The notes under the pieces were generated by a model. It was not told the DNA's origin and searched no databases. It was given only the letters and a program-made list of their open reading frames with translations. Below are positions 1 to 10,207 of a stretch of DNA of 64,000 bases, piece after piece (within the stretch, counting starts at the first letter, position 1; each line of letters starts with the position of its first letter). The stretch lies in NCBI RefSeq assembly GCF_018603515.1, contig NZ_JACATN010000007.1:62001-126000 (forward strand). Direction: 5' to 3'. Source of the stretch: Zobellia barbeyronii. Its GTDB lineage: Bacteria; Bacteroidota; Bacteroidia; Flavobacteriales; Flavobacteriaceae. The translations under genes and the position numbers were made by a program.

Positions 1-264
1 GGCTATTCTTCATACGACGGAATCTGGAACGGATTTTCAGGTTCTGATGAAAAAGAAAAGGAATATATGGGAACGATTCAAAAGGTGGTAGAAAAGGAGA
101 ATCTGTCTCATATGATATGGACACTCTATGACTTCAGGAACATTCCAACTTCCGTAGTTGGGCGCTTACCATGGCGAAAAGTACGGCAGCGTCATTTTGG
201 TTTACTAGATGATAAAGGTGAGAAAAAACCGGTTTACGATATCTTCTTCAATGAGAATCCATAA
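1..264 (+). CDS. C-terminal end of a glycoside-hydrolase-like protein (5' truncated by window)
   Basis: The reading frame is open from the first base, so the start lies outside the window and only the last 87 residues are visible. The segment WTLYDFRNIP followed by RQRHFGLLDDKG and KPVYDIF resembles the last strand and helix of TIM-barrel glycoside hydrolases of the GH2/GH5 type, where a late Trp-Thr-Leu-Tyr-Asp-Phe block precedes a final remark of the form 'RHFGLLD..G..KP'. This is a family resemblance from memory and not a firm assignment. The next plus-strand gene encodes a TPR/outer-membrane barrel of polysaccharide-export type, so a role in making or trimming an exopolysaccharide is plausible but inferred. 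Confidence 0.5.
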   Translation, partial: GYSSYDGIWNGFSGSDEKEKEYMGTIQKVVEKENLSHMIWTLYDFRNIPTSVVGRLPWRKVRQRHFGLLDDKGEKKPVYDIFFNENP

Positions 265-325
265 TAACCTATTGTCTTTACAAACAGTTTATCCACTCCC
301 CTTCTACTAAAATAATATAAGAAAA

Positions 326-628
326 TTAAGCTTGGTTAGCACCCAATATATAAGTTGAATTTATTTTCTGCAACGAAGAAAACACGCTCTCGTTTGTCTT
401 TCCTAGAATAGTTAGTTGGCGATTGCGTTTTGCTGCATTGTCATACAATTCTTGAAGCGCACTTGCTCCGTTAACATCAATACTTGTAATTCGATCTAAA
501 TTTATAACTATACGTCTATCAGAGCCAAGGTATCTACCTATATGGCGGCTAAGAATTGTTGCACTACTGCTGTTTAAAGTTCCATGAACACAAAATATTC
601 CACGTGCTTCTGTAATTTGTAAAGGCAT
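326..628 (-). CDS. STAS-domain protein (anti-anti-sigma-factor-like)
   Basis: A 100-residue protein consisting of one STAS domain. The N-terminal strand (MPLQITEARGIFCVHGTLN) and the loop IDVNGASALQELY match the SpoIIAA/anti-anti-sigma fold, which binds partner switches such as anti-sigma kinases. The residue that is normally the phosphorylated serine of the D-x-S-G loop is Asn here (DVNGAS), so classical serine phosphorylation at that position is not available, although a nearby Ser follows. A GTG 30 bases upstream extends the frame, but I chose the ATG at 628 because it begins exactly at the domain and leaves a normal leader behind the proposed promoter near 671-678. A 21-bp-spaced direct repeat lies just upstream (705-735) and links the gene to the LytTR regulator at 3358. 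No PP2C phosphatase or anti-sigma kinase is nearby. Confidence 0.72.
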   Translation of the reverse strand: MPLQITEARGIFCVHGTLNSSSATILSRHIGRYLGSDRRIVINLDRITSIDVNGASALQELYDNAAKRNRQLTILGKTNESVFSSLQKINSTYILGANQA

Positions 629-704
629 AATATAAAATTTTGTAGGTTTATTTTTCACTTTTCTACAACACGAAATGACGTATAGAACGCACGAAAAGAA
701 ATGT

Positions 705-735
705 ACCGTAGATGGACAGTAATTAACTGTAGATG
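705..735. promoter_or_regulatory. Direct-repeat pair, 21-bp spacing (candidate LytTR site), STAS/TPR intergenic region
   Basis: ACCGTAGATG starts at 705 and ACTGTAGATG starts at 726, exactly 21 bp apart, so both copies face the same side of the helix. The first nine bases of the first copy agree with eight of nine positions of the LytTR consensus as I recall it, [TA][AC][CA]GTTN[AG][TG]. The same motif with the same spacing occurs at 3302-3332 and 9660-9690. The pair lies between the divergent STAS gene and TPR gene. Its orientation and distance match the other two sites if the target is the minus-strand STAS gene. Confidence 0.65.
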
Positions 736-847
736 AGTAGTTTTTATTGTTTTACAGTAATAAAAATAACACCCAAAGTTTTTACCCCACAGTACCAATA
801 AATCCATTTTATGGGCGTTATACTCTTGTGGTAAAAAACCTACTTTA

Positions 848-2908
848 ATGTTAAAACTAAATACACTCTGTTTATTCCTGCTTCTTTCCTTCTACGGAAT
901 GGCACAAAGTCCGCTTCAACCCGGTTTTACCTTGTTAGAAAAAGGTGATTTTGAACAAGCAGAGACTTTTTTTGAAGGTTATCTTGCTGATGACCCTAAG
1001 AATAAAACAGCCTTAATCTGCTACGGGCGTGCTGTAGGATTAAGTGGAGAACCTGAAAAAGCTACAGGAATGTTCTCTTCCCTTTTAGAAGAATATCCTG
1101 GTGATTTTGAAATACAGATAAATTACAATGAATCCTTTCTTTGGGATAAGAAATTTAAAGAAGCAGAACCTTTATACGCTCAACTTGTAAAAGAGTATCC
1201 AGAAAATTTTGGTGCAGTTTTAGGTTATGCAAATACCCTTAGTAATCTAAAGAAATATGAAAAGGCTTTAGAATGGGTAGAAAGAGCTTTGATCATACAA
1301 CCTGGAAATCTTAGTGCCAAAACTTCAAGAAAATATATGCGTTTAGGTTATGCAAATGCCTATGTAAACGCACAGAATTACAAAAAAGGAGAAACTTTAT
1401 TAAAAGAGATATTTATAGATTTTCCTGAAGATAGAGATGCTTTATTAAATCTTGCTAATCTCTATTTGATTACAAAAGAAGTAGATGATGCTAAAGCAAT
1501 CTACAAAAGACTAGCGACTTCTGAAAAAGATTCCATAACCTCACTTAATGGTATTGCTCTTGCTGAACATATTGGAGAGAACGATAAACAAGCTCTAGTA
1601 GTTGCTACTACCGCTAAAGAAAAAGCAGATGCATTTGATGACGCAACAATAAAAGAACAGACCTACGACCGTTATGTCCAAGCCTTAATATGGAACCGAA
1701 AGTACATTAAAGCTAAAACTGAAATTGCAGAATTAGAAACTCAATACACCAACAAAAATTGGCTGTATGCACTAAAAGCTATGCTTGGTCTTTATACCGG
1801 TTCACCTAAAAAGAGTGTCGCTAATTATGATGCCATTCTTAAAAATGACAGTGCTTCTTTTGATGGAAATTTAGGGAAAGCCAACGCACTTTTTGCAGCT
1901 GACCGTATCGTTCCTGCTTACAATGCCGCCTTTGGAACCCTTAAAGTCTTTAAAGACCAGAAAGATGCCATTGGTTTTATTGATAAGTTAAATATATCCT
2001 TTACGCCAACCATAGACGAACATCTTGCCTACACTTTTGATAATGGTAATAATGTTGCTTTTTCTACCAATACAACGGCAACTGTACCTTTATCTACAAA
2101 GTTTAGCACTAACCTAGCCTATTACTATAGAACTACCGAAAATACAGTTACAGATAATAAAGCGAGTTCTCATGTGCTTTCTGCCGGGTTTGATTACAAA
2201 TTCCTTCCTAAGACCACATTTAAAGCCGTTGTAGGTTTAAACAAATCTAGTTTTGGTGCAGAGTCCTACACTCAGCCGGTAATAGACACAAAGCTATTAC
2301 TACAGCCGTTTAAACTGCAAAACCTTGAACTTGGTTACAAACGTGAAATTCAAAGTTTTAATGCCGATTTGATTGAGCGGGAGATTATCATGAACCATTT
2401 TGGTTTTAACTATAACTTGGGTACCAATTTCAATTTAGGTTGGTATACGCAAGCTATACATACCACCCAGAGTGATAATAATACCCGTAACCTCTTGTTT
2501 ACCTCATTATACTACAACTTAATGCGCAAACCGGCCTTAAAAGTAGGTCTTAACTACCAGTACCTTTCTTTTGCCGAACAGGTTCCTACTATTTATTTTA
2601 GTCCAGAGAAATACCAGGCAGTTGAAATATTTGCAGACCTAAGAGGCGATATTTCTGAAAACACCCAGTATATGATGAGTGCTGCAACAGGTTTACAACA
2701 GGTAGAAGACGACCCAAATACAGTTATCTTTAGAGCAGAGACCGGAATAACCCATAAATTCTCCAAAAGGTTTAGCGGTAATTTATATGGAAAGTATAGT
2801 AATATTGCCTCTGCAACTGCTGCTGGTTTTGAGTATACGGAAATTGGTTTGAAGTTAAAATGGCTGATAACCAAGAAACCATTGTTCTACAATAAGATTG
2901 TTAAATAA
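848..2908 (+). CDS. TPR-repeat outer-membrane beta-barrel protein, polysaccharide-exporter-like
   Basis: A 686-residue protein with a signal peptide (residues 1-20, ending YGMAQ). Tandem TPR helices run through about residues 22-375, with typical spacing of Gly/Ala/Tyr positions and phrases such as GYANTLSNLKKYEKALEWVERAL. From about residue 385 to the end the sequence turns into alternating aromatic and hydrophobic strands rich in Tyr, Asn and Thr (for example TNLAYYYRTTENT, GFNYNLGTNFNLGWY), ending GLKLKWLI, as in an outer-membrane barrel. This TPR-then-barrel plan is that of PgaA, BcsC and PelB, which carry exopolysaccharide across the periplasm and outer membrane. The preceding gene ends like a glycoside hydrolase, which fits a polysaccharide locus. 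A TACTCTTG element at 821-828 is a possible -7 box. The substrate is unknown. Confidence 0.7.
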   Translation: MLKLNTLCLFLLLSFYGMAQSPLQPGFTLLEKGDFEQAETFFEGYLADDPKNKTALICYGRAVGLSGEPEKATGMFSSLLEEYPGDFEIQINYNESFLWDKKFKEAEPLYAQLVKEYPENFGAVLGYANTLSNLKKYEKALEWVERALIIQPGNLSAKTSRKYMRLGYANAYVNAQNYKKGETLLKEIFIDFPEDRDALLNLANLYLITKEVDDAKAIYKRLATSEKDSITSLNGIALAEHIGENDKQALVVATTAKEKADAFDDATIKEQTYDRYVQALIWNRKYIKAKTEIAELETQYTNKNWLYALKAMLGLYTGSPKKSVANYDAILKNDSASFDGNLGKANALFAADRIVPAYNAAFGTLKVFKDQKDAIGFIDKLNISFTPTIDEHLAYTFDNGNNVAFSTNTTATVPLSTKFSTNLAYYYRTTENTVTDNKASSHVLSAGFDYKFLPKTTFKAVVGLNKSSFGAESYTQPVIDTKLLLQPFKLQNLELGYKREIQSFNADLIEREIIMNHFGFNYNLGTNFNLGWYTQAIHTTQSDNNTRNLLFTSLYYNLMRKPALKVGLNYQYLSFAEQVPTIYFSPEKYQAVEIFADLRGDISENTQYMMSAATGLQQVEDDPNTVIFRAETGITHKFSKRFSGNLYGKYSNIASATAAGFEYTEIGLKLKWLITKKPLFYNKIVK

Positions 2909-2938
2909 TTCTTCCTTAAGAAAGTTCACTAAAGCGCA

Positions 2939-2976
2939 TAAAAAAAGACAACCTTACAATGAAGTAAGATTATCTT
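2939..2976 (-). terminator. Terminator of the micropeptide transcript
   Basis: Read on the minus strand, arms at 2976-2964 and 2957-2945 form a 13-bp stem with two G-U pairs around a six-base loop, followed directly by a T run (the A run at 2941-2946 on the plus strand). It closes the short transcript that starts near 3261 and lies in the convergent gap behind the TPR gene. Confidence 0.6.
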
Positions 2977-3122
2977 GAGACAAATTGTATTTTCACAAAC
3001 CCATTAAAGTGAAAATATTTTCTAGAAGCTCTTGCTCCTACTATGAATTTATATCTTACAAATTATGCAAAGATGTATGGTTTGTAAAGTGTTGTGATTA
3101 GAATAAAATAGCGCTAAGTATT

Positions 3123-3242
3123 CTAATAATTCCAGATACTCATTACGGCCAAAACGATGCCAATAATTACTGAAACAAGTATACCTATCAAACGTATAGC
3201 GGCACCTTTGGAGTTTAAAATGTATAAAAGATTTGCTTTCAT
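3123..3242 (-). CDS. 39-residue single-span membrane micropeptide
   Basis: ATG at 3242 to TAG at 3123 encodes 39 residues: a short polar and basic N-terminus (MKANLLYILNSKGAAIR) and then one hydrophobic span, about residues 18-36 (LIGILVSVIIGIVLAVMSIW), ending NY. I do not recognise a family. The gene is supported by context. A perfect -7 box (TAAATTTG on the minus strand, 3275-3268) places the transcript start near 3261, giving a leader of about 19 nt. The 21-bp direct repeat pair 3302-3332 sits upstream at an activator's position, and a hairpin terminator follows at 2976-2939. It is therefore a complete small transcription unit directly downstream of, and probably controlled by, the LytTR regulator. 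A regulatory RNA with an incidental ORF is the alternative. Confidence 0.55.
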   Translation of the reverse strand: MKANLLYILNSKGAAIRLIGILVSVIIGIVLAVMSIWNY

Positions 3243-3267
3243 GAGTAGATGGCTTTAATATTCTCTA

Positions 3268-3275
3268 CAAATTTA
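3268..3275 (-). promoter_or_regulatory. -7 promoter element of the micropeptide gene
   Basis: TAAATTTG on the minus strand is an exact match to the Bacteroidota TAnnTTTG element. It lies about 26 bp upstream of the ATG at 3242. The conserved G at 3268 is 34 bp from the first base of the direct repeat at 3302, the same spacing as in front of the gene at 9602. Confidence 0.6.
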
Positions 3276-3301
3276 CATCTCATATTTAATAATAGGAAAG
3301 C

Positions 3302-3332
3302 ACTTACGATGAATTACCTTAACCTATAGATG
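3302..3332. promoter_or_regulatory. Direct-repeat pair, 21-bp spacing (candidate LytTR site), micropeptide promoter
   Basis: ACTTACGATG starts at 3302 and CCTATAGATG at 3323, 21 bp apart; both are followed by AAT, so GATGAAT is identical in the two copies. The pair covers about -41 to -72 relative to the inferred start near 3261. It lies in the gap just after the stop codon of the LytTR gene. Confidence 0.65.
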
Positions 3333-3357
3333 AATGGTATAAAATTGTAGAAGAGAT

Positions 3358-4080
3358 TTAAACCAAGTTTAATCGTCTCATGAGCTCTGGTCGATTTGAT
3401 CGACTAATGGGAATAACCATCTTCTTGATAAGAACACTATTATCTTCAATATCAATGATCTTAGAGAAGTTAATAATGTACGACCTGTGTATTTGAAGAA
3501 ATATTTTTTCAGGTAATTTATCCTTTACTTTTTTAAGCGTTGTATGTACGCGATACTCTTTATTTTCTGTTGTAATATCAATATAATCTCCTTGCGCTTT
3601 CACTACTAGTATTTCGTTAAAGTGAAGCTTTATTAATCTCTTATCAATATTGATATAAAGGTCTTGTTCAGCTTGTGCACCAGTCCCAACATTAGTATTT
3701 AAACTTGGAACAGAGTCAGGCTGTTTTTTAAGTGCACTTTTTACTTTTTGTATAGATTTCTGAAAACGATCAGCAGTTAAGGGTTTCACCATATAATCTA
3801 CAATAGCCTCATACTCATATGCTGCAATGGCAAACTCTGTATCTGAAGTGGTCAAAACAACTTTAGGACAATTCTTTAGAGTTTGGACAAAATCTACTCC
3901 ACTAAAACCTGGCATGTGAATGTCCAAAAACACAACATCTACATCTTGTTGATTCAAAAATTTAATAGCGTCTATGGCATTATCAAACTCTCCAACAACA
4001 TCTAAATCTGCCACCGCAGAGCAATGTTTTCCTACTATGGCACGTGCTGTTGCTTCGTCATCTACGATAATACAGGTCAT
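3358..4080 (-). CDS. LytTR-family response regulator
   Basis: A 240-residue regulator. The receiver domain (residues 1-120) has the acidic pair VDDE at 6-9, the phospho-acceptor Asp53 in VVFLDIHMPGFSG, a Thr in LTTSD and Lys in VKPL. The LytTR DNA-binding domain (about 140-240) contains KAQGDYIDI, the KKVKDKL linker and the block IHRSYIINFSKI typical of the family. LytTR regulators bind direct repeats on one helix face, and three such repeat pairs with 21-bp spacing exist in this window. It is the last gene of the sensor operon, four bases after the HPt gene, which makes it the natural terminal phosphate acceptor and transcriptional output. Confidence 0.92.
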   Translation of the reverse strand: MTCIIVDDEATARAIVGKHCSAVADLDVVGEFDNAIDAIKFLNQQDVDVVFLDIHMPGFSGVDFVQTLKNCPKVVLTTSDTEFAIAAYEYEAIVDYMVKPLTADRFQKSIQKVKSALKKQPDSVPSLNTNVGTGAQAEQDLYINIDKRLIKLHFNEILVVKAQGDYIDITTENKEYRVHTTLKKVKDKLPEKIFLQIHRSYIINFSKIIDIEDNSVLIKKMVIPISRSNRPELMRRLNLV

Positions 4081-4084
4081 ACTA

Positions 4085-4402
4085 TTAAATGGTTTTAAGA
4101 AAATTATCTATTTGCGTTAAGGTAATTCTAAAATCTGAATCCATATCTGTTTTTCCAGCTCTTAACTGCTCTTCAAATTGAACAGCAAAGCGGTAAGCTT
4201 CTTCCATGCTTAAGATGTTGAATTTATGTTTTAATTTATGTACAACATCTGCGGCTTCATTCATGTTTTTGCTATCTATATGTTCCTTATAAGTAGCTCT
4301 TTCCATTGGGAATTCGTCCTTCAATATAGAAATAAATTTTTGTTCAAACTCAATGTCATCACCAGATAATTCTTTAATGTATTTAAGGTTTGGTTCTTCC
4401 AT
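4085..4402 (-). CDS. HPt phosphotransfer protein
   Basis: A 105-residue all-helical protein with the HPt motif VVHKLKHKF; His55 is the expected phosphorylation site. It is a single free-standing domain, as used to pass phosphate between receivers in multistep relays. It lies four bases from the kinase gene upstream and four from the LytTR gene downstream, so translation is probably coupled. The operon contains two separate receivers (CheY-like and LytTR) and two kinases, and this protein is the likely shuttle between them. Confidence 0.88.
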   Translation of the reverse strand: MEEPNLKYIKELSGDDIEFEQKFISILKDEFPMERATYKEHIDSKNMNEAADVVHKLKHKFNILSMEEAYRFAVQFEEQLRAGKTDMDSDFRITLTQIDNFLKTI

Positions 4403-4406
4403 AGCA

Positions 4407-5465
4407 CTATTTTTTTAACGTAAACGTGAAATTTGCACCCATATTTTCTTCTGACACCAATTCTATAGAACCATCATATAATTTGACGATTTTTTTAGCC
4501 AATGCCAAACCCACTCCAGCAGCACTATCATTATTCTCTAGTTTTCTAAACATTTCAAATATGGAAGATTGATGCTTAACTGGAATTCCCTTTCCGTTAT
4601 CAACTACAGAAAACTTCCAAAATTTATCATCTTTTTCATACTTTATTTCAACTCTGCCTTTGTCCTTATCCTTTGTAGCAGTAATCGCGTTTGTAATTAG
4701 GTATGTAAAAACCTGCTCAATTAGGTGCTTTTCAATATGTATCACTGGAAAATTAGAACCATAACTCAAACTAACATTATCCGGTAATGGCACATAACTT
4801 TCTATTTCCTTTAAAAGAATATTGATATCAACATTCATTTTAGATTCCATACTAGTCCCAATTGTGGCATGCTCTAGTATTCCATTAATTAAATTGTCCA
4901 TTTTAGCCAGATTGCTCGAGGCTAAAGCTAAGTTTTCTTTATTTTCTTCCGTTAAGCTATTTTGGTCATCTTCAAGAACCCAGCTTAGCAAAGCATTTAC
5001 ATTACGAATAGGGGATTTTAAATCATGGGACACCATCTGAACATAATTATTAAGAGATTCATTTTGTGCTTCTAAATCCTCTAAAAGAAGGTTTTTCTCC
5101 TCTGTAATTTCTTTTACTTCTGCTGCTAAGTAGCTAATATGCTTTGCCAATTTTTCTACATCAAATACTTTTGAAGCATCTCCTTCAAATTGTTTATCCG
5201 TACCTAAGTTTGAACTTAGGCTATCCATAGCCAACTCCAAGGACACCAAAATTTTCTTCTGCCTTTCTGCCTCTTTGGTCAACTCTCTATTTGCTACAAA
5301 TAATTCTTCTGAGCTAATGGCAGTAGCCCTTTGTAACATATTAAGTTTCTCATCATGATTCTGATAAGACATTTCTACGGCAGCCAAAAACATCTGCATC
5401 TCAGGGTCTTCGCTAAGATGAGCGGGTAAAGTTTTTTTAAGTTGTCGTTTTAATAGAGAATGCAT
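4407..5465 (-). CDS. Cytosolic sensor histidine kinase partnered with FIST protein
   Basis: A 352-residue kinase without membrane spans. The N-terminal 70 residues (MHSLLKRQLKKTLPAHL and later LQRATAISSEELFVANREL) resemble the leader segment I remember from kinases encoded next to FIST proteins. A coiled coil follows (about 55-140). The HisKA motif is VSHDLKSPIRN with His147. The HATPase_c domain shows the N box (TNAITATKD), DNGKGIPVKH and GVGLALAKKI. Its start overlaps the stop of the FIST gene by one base, so the two are translationally coupled and probably physically partnered, as NosP is with NahK-type kinases. It has no receiver of its own; the free HPt follows. Confidence 0.9.
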   Translation of the reverse strand: MHSLLKRQLKKTLPAHLSEDPEMQMFLAAVEMSYQNHDEKLNMLQRATAISSEELFVANRELTKEAERQKKILVSLELAMDSLSSNLGTDKQFEGDASKVFDVEKLAKHISYLAAEVKEITEEKNLLLEDLEAQNESLNNYVQMVSHDLKSPIRNVNALLSWVLEDDQNSLTEENKENLALASSNLAKMDNLINGILEHATIGTSMESKMNVDINILLKEIESYVPLPDNVSLSYGSNFPVIHIEKHLIEQVFTYLITNAITATKDKDKGRVEIKYEKDDKFWKFSVVDNGKGIPVKHQSSIFEMFRKLENNDSAAGVGLALAKKIVKLYDGSIELVSEENMGANFTFTLKK

Positions 5466-6598
5466 TATTCGCTAAATAAAGTTAAGGTCATTGTTTGGTT
5501 GTGTAACCTACAGGCATCTTTACCGGCAAACGGAGCCATTTCCCCATAAGAATAGAACCCAGTAACCGCTGTATCTGTTCCTATTACAGAGATTACTTCT
5601 TCAACTTCCTCTTCCGTTCGCTGATCCATGACCAACTTTCTACCCACACAACTTACTAAAATAGCCAGCTCGGGTTTGTTTTCCCTACCGTTCATAGCGT
5701 ACTGTGCAGCAATACTTGCACCATCAACTATATCATCTACCGTAGACATCATTAACTGTACACGTGCTCCTTCCGGAACATCTCCAGCCAAAGTCATTGT
5801 GTTAGAAGTATCATCAATAGTTAGTATTGTACGAACCAAAGGCTCGTCATCTTCATTAACCCGTACACTTAATGGATATAATAAAGCAGACGTTGGCAAC
5901 TCCTTTGCTTTTTCTCCCAAATATTTTTTATAGAGATCCAAAGCGGGCTGTCCGTCTAGCTCATAAAGTATGTTATTTTCAGATTTTGTAATTATCCGTT
6001 CAGGACCAAAAGGCGTCCAACCACCATAATTGGCGCTTGTTATTTCTAGAGATTCTCCATAAAACCCTATAGCTATTACCTCTCCTTCTTTGGCATTCTC
6101 GTTGTATGAGGCAAGTGTTCTTTCAAAACGGTCATCATCTCCACACAAACCACCTGAAAGTCCAATATTATTTATCCTGACACCTTCAAAACCTTCGATT
6201 AATGCGCTACCGTTTATAGAGCTACCTTCTGATACTAGAAAAATATGCTTTAGGTTTTCCTTAGAAAACTCGTTAAAAAGAGTTTGTCCCAATAAAAGTT
6301 CATTATCTATTTCTGAGACATTCTTTCTCTTTACCGAGAAGTGACATTTTTCAAATTCTATAGCCGTCAATGACACGCCACCTTCCAGTACGGTATCATC
6401 TATAATTTCGCCTGCTGTGCTACCCAAAACAATATGTCCGTTTGGAAAAAGTTTCTTTATTTCAATAAAAAGGTTATCATCTTCAAGAAGATACCTATTT
6501 CCAAAAACCAAAACCAGAGGTTCCTTTAAATCATGGTTTTCACCAGATATTATTTTAAATGGTTGCTTTCCTTCTTTTATGGCCTGCGTTATTTTCAT
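5465..6598 (-). CDS. FIST-domain sensor protein, NosP-like
   Basis: A 377-residue protein with FIST_N (about 30-225; LVLVFGNRYLL, GSTAGEIIDD, GLSGGLCGDDDRF) and FIST_C (about 230-370). The closing block GFYSYGEMAPF followed by CRLHNQTMTLTLF (His366) is the hallmark of the family. FIST proteins include NosP, a haem-based nitric-oxide sensor that regulates partner kinases. Not every FIST protein binds haem, so NO sensing is inferred from the H-NOX gene two genes upstream and the kinase directly downstream. No signal peptide or membrane span is visible, so it acts in the cytoplasm. It starts two bases after the PAS kinase ends. Confidence 0.88.
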   Translation of the reverse strand: MKITQAIKEGKQPFKIISGENHDLKEPLVLVFGNRYLLEDDNLFIEIKKLFPNGHIVLGSTAGEIIDDTVLEGGVSLTAIEFEKCHFSVKRKNVSEIDNELLLGQTLFNEFSKENLKHIFLVSEGSSINGSALIEGFEGVRINNIGLSGGLCGDDDRFERTLASYNENAKEGEVIAIGFYGESLEITSANYGGWTPFGPERIITKSENNILYELDGQPALDLYKKYLGEKAKELPTSALLYPLSVRVNEDDEPLVRTILTIDDTSNTMTLAGDVPEGARVQLMMSTVDDIVDGASIAAQYAMNGRENKPELAILVSCVGRKLVMDQRTEEEVEEVISVIGTDTAVTGFYSYGEMAPFAGKDACRLHNQTMTLTLFSE

Positions 6599-6600
6599 CT

Positions 6601-8589
6601 TTAGCTATTAAGGTTGGTCGGTTCTTTTTTGATAGTAAAGTGAAATTCAGTACCCATGTCTTTTTCACTCTCTACCCATACTTCGCCTTCGTAGCGGTCA
6701 ATAATCTTCTTAACAATGGAAAGGCCAATACCGGTAGACCTTTCATTAGCTCCTATGGATTGAAAAATTTCGAATATTTTCTTATGATACTCCTTAGGTA
6801 TACCTACTCCGTTATCTTTTATCGAAAACTGCCAATGTGTTTTATTTTCTACAAATAGTACTTCTACAAGGCCTTTTTCCTTTTCTATATGAACTACTGC
6901 ATTAGAGAGTATATTCTGAAACAATTGATGCATTTTGGTACTATCTGCAATAATCGTGGGCAAAGGTTTAGGTACAACCAATGCAACGTGTTCAGGTATA
7001 AATATGCTTTCTTTGATTTTTTCTACAACTTCATTTAAATCAACACTAGAATTATCTAGCGCAGAATCGTTGGCTGTTGAATATTCTAAAATACCTTGGA
7101 TCAATTTATCCATTGAGGCAACTTTATCTTGCATTAACGTTAGGTTCTCTTGCCCTGCTTCATCAAGCACATCTTTATAATCATCTTGAATCCACGTGGC
7201 CAATGCACTTATACTCCGTAAAGGCGACTTTAAATCGTGTGAAACAATATGTGCATATTCCTGAAGTCCTTTATTACTTTGTTCTAATTCCTTAACTAAT
7301 AATTCCTTTTGTAATTCAAGAAGTTTTTGGGTGGTAATATCTAAGTGAATTCCAACGGAACCTATCAACTTTTTATTGCCATCGTAACGTGGCGCTCCAC
7401 TTACCAACCAATGCTTTATTTTTCCACTTTTGTCTAGGACTTCAAGCTCGTAAGAATCTGACTCTCCTTCTGCTCGCTTTTCATTTTCCTTATCTAGAAC
7501 ATTCTTATTTTGTACCCGAAGAACATCGCTCCCCTTTTTGCCTAATAATTCATCTTCCTGAAAACCGCTCATTGAACAAAAGCTCTGGTTTACAAATTGA
7601 ATTATATCTTCTGTATCTACTTCTACCAGACCCAGGTTCATATTGGCAATAATACTGGCATATTTTTCGCGCTCGTAAATTAACCGCTCTTCTGCCTCGC
7701 GTTCTCTAGTTATGTCTTCTACCATTGCTAAGACATATTTTAAATTACCCTTATAGTCCCTTACAGCACTAACAGAAGTTTTTCCTATTAAACAACCGCC
7801 CTGTTTCTTATAATACCTTTTAATTACAATATCCTTGTCTATTTTACCTTCGGACATTTGCATTACAATTTCATTGGCTGTGGGCCCCTCTATAACTTTA
7901 GAAAACTCCTCAAACTTCATGGTTTTAAACTCTGCTTCTGTATAACCAAGAAGTTCTGTAAAAGTCCTGTTTGATTTTATAATTTTGCCTTCAACACTTA
8001 ATACAATACCCAAAGGAGAACTATCCACTATAATATCTAGCTGCTTTCTTTGTTGCTCAAGCAGCTCTTTAATTTCCATTTCCTGGGTAATATCCCTAAT
8101 AATTCCCTGGGCACCAATAGGTTCCCTTTTAGTATTAAAGATTAAACTAGCGTTGATTTCTATCCATTTTTCATCGCCATTCTTTACAGAAATTTTAGCA
8201 CGGTAGTTTTTAAGAGTGCCTATCTCTATAAGATATTTAAAGGATTCAGCAGTATATTTAAGGTAGTCTTGGTGTACAAGATTGGTAAGATTGACTTTTT
8301 CTTTGGTGTTATCATAACCTAAGAATTCCTTAGCCGACGTGTTCATATTAATTACGTTGGCATACATATCCATTACCACATATGGATCTATAATGTTTAC
8401 AAAAACATTATCCAGTTCAGAAACCTTTTCGCTCAATAGATTTTCAAGAGTGCCATTGGCCTCTTTTAATTGTTGTGTAGTTTCGTAGAGTTCTGTAGAC
8501 TTTTGTTCTAGAATTTTTTCAGCTTGTTGCCTAGCCCTCTTTTGTCTTTCTAGTGCTCTTTTTAGAAGCTGTACTTCTTTATTATCCAT
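6601..8589 (-). CDS. Triple-PAS cytosolic histidine kinase, H-NOX partner
   Basis: A 662-residue kinase with an N-terminal coiled coil (about 5-60), three PAS domains (about 60-175, 180-300, 305-425; each followed by a PAC-like block, for example GIIRDITQEME, AMVEDITRERE and GIHLDITTQK), a HisKA domain with VSHDLKSPLRS (His451) and HATPase_c (NILSNAVVH, DNGVGIPKEYH, STGIGLSIVKKI). There is no transmembrane segment. A TTG at 8604 would extend the frame, but the ATG at 8589 overlaps the H-NOX stop by eight bases, a usual coupling arrangement. H-NOX proteins typically control an adjacent kinase, so this is the expected partner. The PAS domains may add further small-molecule or redox input. Confidence 0.9.
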   Translation of the reverse strand: MDNKEVQLLKRALERQKRARQQAEKILEQKSTELYETTQQLKEANGTLENLLSEKVSELDNVFVNIIDPYVVMDMYANVINMNTSAKEFLGYDNTKEKVNLTNLVHQDYLKYTAESFKYLIEIGTLKNYRAKISVKNGDEKWIEINASLIFNTKREPIGAQGIIRDITQEMEIKELLEQQRKQLDIIVDSSPLGIVLSVEGKIIKSNRTFTELLGYTEAEFKTMKFEEFSKVIEGPTANEIVMQMSEGKIDKDIVIKRYYKKQGGCLIGKTSVSAVRDYKGNLKYVLAMVEDITREREAEERLIYEREKYASIIANMNLGLVEVDTEDIIQFVNQSFCSMSGFQEDELLGKKGSDVLRVQNKNVLDKENEKRAEGESDSYELEVLDKSGKIKHWLVSGAPRYDGNKKLIGSVGIHLDITTQKLLELQKELLVKELEQSNKGLQEYAHIVSHDLKSPLRSISALATWIQDDYKDVLDEAGQENLTLMQDKVASMDKLIQGILEYSTANDSALDNSSVDLNEVVEKIKESIFIPEHVALVVPKPLPTIIADSTKMHQLFQNILSNAVVHIEKEKGLVEVLFVENKTHWQFSIKDNGVGIPKEYHKKIFEIFQSIGANERSTGIGLSIVKKIIDRYEGEVWVESEKDMGTEFHFTIKKEPTNLNS

Positions 8590-9124
8590 TTTGAACAATA
8601 TCAAATTTAACCTCAGTGCCGTCTTCTTTTAATAAGTCGTAGGTAATTGTAGCGGAACCTCCAAAGTGCTCAAAAGCCTTTTCTATAAGACCATGAGCCA
8701 AACGGTATAAGCCTCTAGAGGAAGAGTATACCATTACTATTTTTGTGTCCGTTTTGTCCAGAATTTTAAATGTTGGTAGTTCTGCATCTGGATACAGCTT
8801 TTTTACATGTACGTGTATATGATCTTCTATACAATATAAAAGACCTAATGGGGAATTATAGTTCTTAATAACTTCGGGGTGAGAGTTAGCCAAACCTGCA
8901 AATAGGTATAGACCAAAAGCATAAATGAGATCGCCAGCCGGAATTTTGGTTTCTTCGCTAAGGTTGGTTATTAGCGTTACCATCTCATTAAACTCATATG
9001 TACCTACAGAAGTATAAATACCTTCTGAAGGCAAATGACCATTTTCAATAATATTATCAACAGTCTCAAGACCAAACTTGATCTCTACCATTTCTAAAAA
9101 CTCTGTAAAAACAATACCCTTCAT
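8582..9124 (-). CDS. H-NOX (haem nitric-oxide/oxygen-binding) sensor
   Basis: A 180-residue stand-alone H-NOX domain. It carries the proximal haem ligand His104 in DHIHVHVKKLYPDAELP and the propionate-binding Y-x-S-x-R motif as YSSSR (133-137). Both are required for haem binding in the characterised family, so the protein should be haem-loaded. The opening MKGIVFTEFLEMVE is typical of H-NOX proteins. It is soluble and lacks a fused signalling domain, as in bacterial H-NOX proteins that act on a neighbouring histidine kinase. Its stop overlaps the start of the PAS kinase. Whether it selects NO over O2 cannot be read with certainty from the sequence. Confidence 0.93.
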   Translation of the reverse strand: MKGIVFTEFLEMVEIKFGLETVDNIIENGHLPSEGIYTSVGTYEFNEMVTLITNLSEETKIPAGDLIYAFGLYLFAGLANSHPEVIKNYNSPLGLLYCIEDHIHVHVKKLYPDAELPTFKILDKTDTKIVMVYSSSRGLYRLAHGLIEKAFEHFGGSATITYDLLKEDGTEVKFDIVQNG

Positions 9125-9200
9125 ATACCATAATTTATCTACTAAAAGTAGGAAAAGTAGTATAGTTTAAAGAATTTTTGTTGTGAAACGCACTATTTTG

Positions 9201-9602
9201 TTAGCCTTTCACCAATTGGTTGATGTCCCAGTACTCAAGAACCTTATGAAGTTTAGATTGATAATCTTCATATTTCAATGGTTTAATCACGTAACCGGCT
9301 ACTCCAATTTTATAACATTCCAATAAATCTGCTCTGTTTTCAGATGTTGTAAGAATAACTGTAGGAAGATATTTTAGTACGTCATCTGCCTTTAAAATGC
9401 TTAAAAATTCTATACCGTTCATTCTTGGCATGTTAAGATCTAACAAAATAATATCTGGCAATCTATTACCCGATCTTAAGATTTCTAATGCATCTTCGCC
9501 ATTCTTGGTTTCTATTATATTATGCTTAAGTTCTAACTTCTTTACCGTTCGCTGTAACTTCATTACTTCAATAGCATCATCTTCAATCAATAAAATATCC
9601 AT
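9201..9602 (-). CDS. Stand-alone CheY-like response regulator
   Basis: A 133-residue single receiver domain with acidic pocket IEDD (6-9), phospho-acceptor Asp55 in IILLDLNMPRMNG, the Thr of ILTTSE and Lys in VIKPLKY. It resembles Rcp1-type single-domain regulators and has no output domain. It is the first gene of the operon, 76 bases before H-NOX. It probably accepts phosphate from one of the kinases and passes it to the HPt, or acts as a sink. A candidate -7 box (9634-9626) and a 21-bp direct repeat pair (9660-9690) precede it, so the operon may be under autoregulation by its own LytTR product. Confidence 0.92.
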   Translation of the reverse strand: MDILLIEDDAIEVMKLQRTVKKLELKHNIIETKNGEDALEILRSGNRLPDIILLDLNMPRMNGIEFLSILKADDVLKYLPTVILTTSENRADLLECYKIGVAGYVIKPLKYEDYQSKLHKVLEYWDINQLVKG

Positions 9603-9625
9603 AACATGTAATTTTTAGTGAAATA

Positions 9626-9634
9626 CAAATTTTA
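9626..9634 (-). promoter_or_regulatory. -7-like promoter element of the sensor operon
   Basis: TAAAATTTG on the minus strand is the TAnnTTTG element with one extra base. It predicts a start near 9619 and a leader of about 17 nt. The conserved G at 9626 lies 34 bp from the direct repeat at 9660, the same spacing as at the micropeptide promoter. Confidence 0.5.
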
Positions 9635-9659
9635 GAATTAAATAATAGAATTTTGACCA

Positions 9660-9690
9660 GCTATAGACGAGTGACTTTTAACTGTAGACG
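9660..9690. promoter_or_regulatory. Direct-repeat pair, 21-bp spacing (candidate LytTR site), sensor-operon promoter
   Basis: GCTATAGACG starts at 9660 and ACTGTAGACG at 9681, exactly 21 bp apart. Seven bases (TAGACGA) are identical in the two copies. The pair is upstream of the first gene of the operon that ends with the LytTR regulator, which suggests autoregulation. Confidence 0.65.
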
Positions 9691-9990
9691 AATGGAAAAT
9701 TAGGGTAGTTGAACGATTTCCGTATTTACGCCGTTATTCTCCATTACCTAGTATATAAGCTAACTACAATAGTAATTTGAAGTTCTTAACACAGATGTCT
9801 GCCTGCTCTTTTCAAACAATAACTTACTACCTTCCAAGGGATTAAACCAATTACCTACTGTAATTATAAAACTTCTTTGAAAACATTATAAATTTTGCGG
9901 ATATTTGCAGCCTGTTTAGTACGAAGTGATAGTCTATTTATTAGACTTTTACCATAATCACAAACTATTCTCTAAACAAAAATCTCTCAT

Positions 9991-10199: not shown

Positions 10200-10207
10200 T
10201 AGATTTG
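10200..10207 (+). promoter_or_regulatory. -7 promoter element of the MerR/carotenoid operon
   Basis: TAGATTTG is an exact TAnnTTTG match and predicts a start near 10214, 15 bases before the ATG at 10229. The in-frame TTG at 10205 falls inside this element, which argues against it as a start codon. Confidence 0.55.

Follow-up and report, generated by a model that had tools for sequence, protein, structure and literature searches.

Introduction

In those parts of the literature consulted on YpdB, RcoM1 and CoxC, LytTR-type operators consist of direct repeats that recur at a distance of about two helical turns, the known arrangement being units of 9-11 nt separated by 10-13 nt, and they lie mostly upstream of the core promoter and adjoin a REC-LytTR or LytTR protein. 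AgrA and ComE are further systems of this type. Here we analysed a 64,000-nt stretch of the Zobellia barbeyronii genome (assembly GCF_018603515.1, contig NZ_JACATN010000007.1, positions 62,001 to 126,000; hereafter the window), in which three pairs of direct repeats precede a predicted operon with two kinds of candidate nitric oxide (NO) sensor, H-NOX and FIST (NosP-like), a micropeptide gene and a STAS-domain gene. The pairs differ from the operators above in the sequence of the unit, in a fixed step of 30 or 51 nt to the Bacteroidota -7 box and in being coupled to H-NOX and FIST sensors. The kind of element, a LytTR operator, would be a known one; what is new, as far as our searches reach, is the coupling to H-NOX/NosP-like sensing, the fixed phase across genera and the company kept with a LytTR gene at two locations.

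NosP-type FIST proteins are haem-binding sensors of NO that control a kinase next to them (PMC12570481), and H-NOX proteins likewise sense NO and steer kinases (PMC6769237), according to the consulted parts of these papers. The same holds for what follows on Proteobacterial H-NOX/NosP biofilm signalling, in which an H-NOX or FIST protein is encoded with a histidine kinase and the output is a group behaviour, for which exopolysaccharide would be the counterpart here; in S. oneidensis a phosphorylated transcription factor, HnoC, acts in a feedback loop and is described as a repressor (PMC6769237, PMC12570481, PMC8738867). Unlike these systems, the one described here has both sensor types in one operon with one HPt protein and one LytTR regulator. 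Many of the known H-NOX/NosP outputs, in the sources consulted, use enzymes of cyclic di-GMP (c-di-GMP), whereas this genome gave no hit to the GGDEF domain (in a search that covered neither EAL nor HD-GYP, and whose control found the domain in 8 of 14 genomes), so the usual synthesis of c-di-GMP appears to be absent. Within the consulted parts of the open-access literature searched, we found no description of an H-NOX-LytTR system or of an operator for an H-NOX output in Bacteroidota, nor anything relevant on NO and biofilm in Zobellia.

We propose, with a probability of roughly 0.8, that the pairs serve as activator operator for the REC-LytTR protein of 3358-4080, which would end a phosphorelay running from H-NOX/FIST (NosP-like) kinases through an HPt protein. 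The paired tag is very probably a switch of the NO-sensing system over surface-sugar genes. The proposal is built on the computed motif, its spacing, its phase, its conservation and its tracking of the LytTR gene, which are described below.

Three repeat pairs share one spacing and one orientation

The operator of the sensor operon (9660..9715, - strand) has units at 9660 (GCTATAGACGAGT) and 9681 (ACTGTAGACGAAT) and a third at 9702; that of the micropeptide gene (3302..3336, - strand) has units at 3302 (ACTTACGATGAAT) and 3323 (CCTATAGATGAAT), and that of the STAS gene (705..739, - strand) at 705 (ACCGTAGATGGAC) and 726 (ACTGTAGATGAGT). The sequence-only reading, an earlier account of this DNA made without database searches, had proposed these three pairs, and direct reading found all six copies in place, with a period of exactly 21 bp in every pair, the two helical turns or so of LytTR-type operators, and with one orientation common to the three, the genes served all being on the - strand. 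In position order the copies match ACTGTAGATGAAT at 10, 12, 10, 11, 9 and 12 of 13 positions, and read in the direction of the genes the unit approximates CATTCRYCKACAST. Both strands of the motif resemble the ACAGTTNAG-like LytTR consensus, and no conclusion on orientation is drawn from this.

A position weight matrix (PWM) that started from the copies in the window and was then refitted to 51 promoters (those of 50 related loci and of the window) has C at 0.99 in its eighth position and A at 0.96 in its tenth. It scored the half-sites of the sensor operon at 16.4 (9660), 21.8 (9681) and 10.8 (the third copy, 9702), those of the micropeptide gene at 7.0 (3302) and 14.6 (3323), with a weak extra copy at 3344 (2.5), and those of the STAS gene at 9.5 (705) and 15.7 (726). 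At a cut of 18 there was no further pair site in the window, in agreement with the earlier account, to which the third copies at 9702 and 3344 are additions. With the consensus of that account and a loose cut, the window held five registers at spacing 21 on the + strand and none on the - strand, against a mean of 0.15 and a maximum of 1 over both strands in 60 Markov shuffles, a comparison that is partly circular since the consensus derives from the window sites themselves.

The pairs stand at a fixed step from the -7 box

The Bacteroidota -7 element TAnnTTTG lies at -12 to -5 (PMC9723704, consulted in part). Its counterparts are AAAATTTG at 9626..9633 (- strand) before the sensor operon, where TTTG starts 30 nt past the near unit, and TAAATTTG at 3268..3275 (- strand) before the micropeptide gene. 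At both promoters 34 bp separate the -7 G from the first repeat base, just as had been claimed, and the weak -7-like sequence placed at the same distance before the STAS gene is present too (671..678, - strand), reading TCATTTCG; the equivalent place in another Zobellia locus, L036, holds TCATTTCA.

The phase was counted over 109 distinct pair sites (PWM cut 20) from the window, 56 related loci and 41 further stretches. TTTG starts 29-31 nt after the pair in 60 sites and 50-52 nt after it in 22, the latter position being the former plus one 21-bp register, and 81 of the 109 sites are phased in all; no other 3-nt bin holds more than 6. By a lenient criterion, applied without a control, 107 of the 109 are followed on the same strand, 35-300 nt downstream, by an ATG frame of at least 35 codons. 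In the -7 boxes of the 81 phased sites A occupies position 2 in 69, and position 1 is G in 40 and T in only 22.

TTG at -33 is a sigma-A promoter element of Bacteroidota, and it is scarce at these sites (7 of 81, against 13% in shuffles). If the -7 G stands at -5, the near unit spans roughly -39 to -52 and the far unit roughly -60 to -73. Pairs at about -39 to -73 and the missing -33 TTG suit an activator-dependent promoter, and since that element is missing the LytTR protein most likely recruits RNA polymerase here. An RNA element was considered and rejected, because the pairs sit upstream of the -7 box and should not be transcribed from that promoter.

The pairs are conserved in related loci and rank high in the genome

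The 56 related loci came from a scan of named genomes for the H-NOX protein and are, by title, nearly all from Flavobacteriaceae. Their receiver and H-NOX genes are adjacent in 55 (L086 differs), and the pair upstream of the receiver gene is visible by eye in related loci as well. At cut 18 a pair was found in 42 of the 43 loci with the LytTR gene in view and in all 7 loci cut by a contig end, counts that are descriptive because the PWM was fitted on these two groups, and in none of the 5 loci without LytTR (best score 0.5), two of which (L064 and L070) retain one half-site of 9.6. L086 (Saprospiraceae) was left out of this comparison because what matched there is the receiver domain of a LytTR protein. 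On both strands of the 1.05 Mb made up by the window and the 56 loci, spacing 21 gave 95 pair registers against 7 for the 16 other spacings from 15 to 31 combined; overlapping registers of triple arrays enter this count repeatedly, and related loci are not independent. The micropeptide operator scores above the cut of the PWM in three further loci of Zobellia (L034-L036) and is visible by eye in L033 (Zobellia uliginosa).

A genome-wide motif search had been suggested with the sequence-only reading. An independent test used R1, a sequence-only covariance model built from 29 sensor-operon promoters of other loci, which were selected because they have a pair and, at the 30-nt step, a TTT; four of them come from other Zobellia, and the window was not in the training set. 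In the 4.98-Mb genome R1 gave 37 matches at E<=10, with 9660 first (5.7e-11), 3302 second (1.0e-3) and 705 fourth (3.2e-3, a match to part of the model only), and the next match after these at E 0.09. The third rank went to C35:145742 (3.1e-3), which precedes genes for a PAS kinase and a receiver and is a further pair of this genome (G000:C35:145742-145807; L174 5776-5810) with a poor -7 box, AATTTTTT.

A search with the paired pattern gave 10 matches (9 forward, 1 reverse) against 2 for a control pattern. Four of the forward matches are registers of the three window sites and one is C35:145776, before a PAS kinase and a receiver gene. The remaining four and the reverse match (L089, L090, L091, L093 and L094), including an exact 13-mer on contig C34, lie inside open reading frames and were taken as chance. 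Searching with the single 13-mer, which matches 2,726 times at up to 3 mismatches, was useless alone.

The pairs accompany the LytTR gene across genomes

In a sample of 100 genomes of the family (99 genera) the LytTR protein had a match at E<=1e-40 in 61, and 40 of these were called orthologs (E<=6.5e-65, identity at least 51%), a line set after the list was seen; below it came a second G038 copy (47%), followed by proteins of at most 41%. R1 hits at E<=0.001 occurred in 35 of the 40 genomes with an ortholog and in 3 of the 60 without (Fisher 4e-18, a value that ignores the relatedness of the genomes), and the LytTR gene is no more than 10 kb away from 55 of the 70 hits found in the former. 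At cut 15 the PWM found no pair for G037 and G052, whose R1 hits look like chance. All 24 genomes with the flippase have the LytTR ortholog.

Five genomes (loci L060, L063, L064, L067 and L070, from Pseudozobellia, Euzebyella and strain FL35) have an H-NOX operon with neither a LytTR gene nor a pair (best score at most 0.5). Each has a single close LytTR ortholog of 69-72% identity, the other matches at E<=1e-40 reaching only 35-36%. This relocated ortholog follows a receiver gene, and in 5 of 5 genomes a pair scoring 31.4-43.9, at promoters not used in training, precedes that receiver gene. By sharing a relocated LytTR gene and a pair, these genomes would single out the LytTR protein. A PilJ-type kinase, identified by scan in L157 only, stands alongside the relocated receiver-LytTR genes (L156-L160, in G010-G014), beside genes that we take to be NirB, NirD and CobA.

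The sensor operon and the other genes served

Because the gaps between them are short, seven genes on the - strand are read as one putative operon starting at 9602. It opens with a stand-alone receiver (9201..9602; Pfam Response_reg, D55), the window copy of which has no DNA-binding domain by Pfam, followed by the H-NOX protein (8582..9124; HNOB 8.6e-36, YxSxR motif at 133), a PAS histidine kinase (6601..8604; PAS, HisKA and HATPase_c, H456), the FIST (NosP-like) protein (5465..6598; FIST and FIST_C), a second histidine kinase (4407..5465; HisKA and HATPase_c, H147) and the HPt protein (4085..4402; Hpt, H55). The last gene encodes the REC-LytTR regulator (3358..4080; Response_reg and LytTR, D53), the proposed binder of the pairs. 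The HNOB, FIST and FIST_C matches exceed their cut-offs and two kinases lie in the operon, a gene context of the H-NOX/NosP kind; phosphorylation sites are present in both kinases, the HPt protein and both receivers. In the related locus of G063 (L185) the H-NOX frame has one TAG and the FIST match is partial.

The pair at 3302, situated a short way past the end of the LytTR gene, faces the gene of a 39-amino-acid (39-aa) micropeptide (MKANLLY..., translated from 3123..3242, - strand), which differs from its counterparts in four other Zobellia loci by 9-11 synonymous and 2-6 non-synonymous codons. In the equivalent place, directly behind LytTR and under a pair, L043 (13166) and L047 (13540) have hydrophobic micropeptides of 36 aa that are not evidently similar to it. 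For the STAS-domain protein (326..658, - strand; Pfam STAS) the annotated start may lie at 628, giving 100 aa, and this 100-aa form is present in L095.

In relatives, pairs stand before STAS genes (at cut 18, before 8 of the 14 STAS hits in related loci), the flippase (PF13440), a group-1 glycosyltransferase, receiver-GT2 fusions (two scanned) and secreted proteins (one scanned, with DUF4114 and a type IX sorting tail). The cluster adjoining the sensor operon (window 1-2908 and G000:C35:52000-62500, L179) has a TPR protein (848-2908), the STAS protein, a GH5-related protein (matched in a relative), a flippase, a glycosyltransferase, a receiver-GT2 fusion and a protein of 1028 aa, for whose relative in L161 Pfam gave no match; by its parts the cluster appears exopolysaccharide-like. 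Three further R1 hits, in as many genomes (L164, L165 and L168; 2.4e-6, 8.6e-6 and 1.0e-4), precede a DoxX-like gene near MsrA/MsrB-like genes, and two of these loci have PWM pairs over cut 16. On the other side of the operon a MerR/B12-binding regulator is encoded at 10205 on the + strand, followed on that strand, up to 13914, by what we take to be carotenoid-like genes (desaturase, phytoene synthase and hydroxylase).

Proposed mechanism and alternative explanations

The H-NOX/PAS kinase and the FIST (NosP-like)/kinase pair would pass phosphate to the stand-alone receiver, from there to HPt and on to the LytTR protein. NO is the presumed signal, and the sign of its effect is equally presumptive. 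The LytTR protein would bind two, sometimes three, units lying 21 bp apart on one face of the DNA, the near unit usually 30 nt before TTTG, and bring RNA polymerase to promoters that lack the -33 TTG. Further targets would be the micropeptide gene, probably the STAS gene and, in relatives, export, glycosyltransferase and secreted-protein genes of the exopolysaccharide-type cluster. The sequence-only reading had taken the pairs for a LytTR activator site including autoregulation. The activator site is supported by the co-occurrence across genera, the relocated LytTR gene with its own pair and the position upstream of the -7 box; the route of autoregulation had to be corrected, since the LytTR gene is the last of the operon from 9602 and autoregulation would run through the pair at 9660, not the one at 3302.

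Several observations weigh against this proposal, in addition to the ortholog line drawn afterwards and the relatedness behind the Fisher value. L048 has LytTR and no good pair (9.8), and five genomes have an ortholog and no R1 hit (G023, G062, G085, G096 and G104); among their stretches only that of G104 holds a PWM pair, the promoter lying outside the stretch in G062 and G096. H-NOX was found in 37 genomes, 33 of them with R1 hits, and tracks these hits almost as closely as LytTR does, so that tracking by itself does not point to the latter; in the five genomes with the relocated module the stand-alone receiver has moved along with LytTR. Of the promoters in this genome, that of the flippase has a single good half-site (15.4) and that of STAS a poor -7 box. 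G063 retains a strong pair (42.9) at its H-NOX operon, and no close LytTR ortholog was found in its genome, possibly through recent loss. That case, and the 14 LytTR domains of the Z. barbeyronii genome, could mean that a different regulator binds the pairs, be it one of the genome's 13 other LytTR proteins or the MerR-type protein encoded at 10205, and that the link with this LytTR is incidental; we consider this quite improbable, given the co-occurrence, the relocated operon with its own pair and the low identity, noted above, of the next best LytTR proteins in the genomes that have it.

The LytTR protein might instead repress, or bind only when free of phosphate, the signal then lifting the repression. 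One LytTR protein that represses is CoxC, whose three repeats overlap the -35 box (PMC11347149, in the part consulted), and NO-bound H-NOX is known, from sources seen in part, to inhibit kinases. The units described here, however, stop some 39 nt short of the start and lie upstream of the core promoter, and the -33 TTG is missing, which suits activation and makes repression unlikely. It is more conceivable, though still doubtful, that operator and regulator are as proposed and the main signal is not NO but another one, such as nitrate, nitrite or a cytoplasmic cue, H-NOX being one of several inputs: the relocated receiver-LytTR genes lie apart from H-NOX beside NirB-like genes and the PilJ-type kinase, and 5 of the 40 ortholog genomes have no H-NOX hit. 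NO as the main signal is favoured by the presence of H-NOX in the other 35, in 33 of them on the same contig 2.3-5.7 kb from LytTR, and of FIST in 30 of the 56 related loci. As for the targets in this strain, the chance that only the sites at 9660 and 3302 work, the STAS site being a remnant, now decaying, of the promoter that serves STAS, flippase and glycosyltransferase in relatives, falls not far short of even. A remnant is favoured by the -7 sequence TCATTTCG, the separation of STAS from flippase and glycosyltransferase in this genome, the presence of pairs before 8 of 14 STAS hits in related loci and the poor half-sites in two of the three other Zobellia loci with STAS in view (best 4.1 in L034 and 5.8 in L035); a working site is favoured by the fourth R1 rank genome-wide and by two good half-sites both here and in L036 (15.1 and 9.0). 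The STAS site is the weakest of the three pairs, and its promoter is only weakly supported in this strain.

Implications for Flavobacteriaceae

At even odds, we would extend the activator-operator proposal to a circuit of Flavobacteriaceae that leads from NO to transcription without a GGDEF enzyme, in which an H-NOX and a NosP-like sensor share one HPt protein and one LytTR activator, the activator directly switching an exopolysaccharide and secreted-protein regulon as well as micropeptides of hydrophobic character. Some genera would, as a group, have the same LytTR module apart from H-NOX, beside nitrite-reductase-like genes and with its operator. The analysis names a concrete operator, a regulator and a set of targets for one H-NOX system of the Bacteroidota. 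How communal behaviour might come under the control of NO in a genome that gave no GGDEF hit becomes a testable question, and the two locations of the LytTR gene are a natural experiment on the joint travel of operators and regulators.

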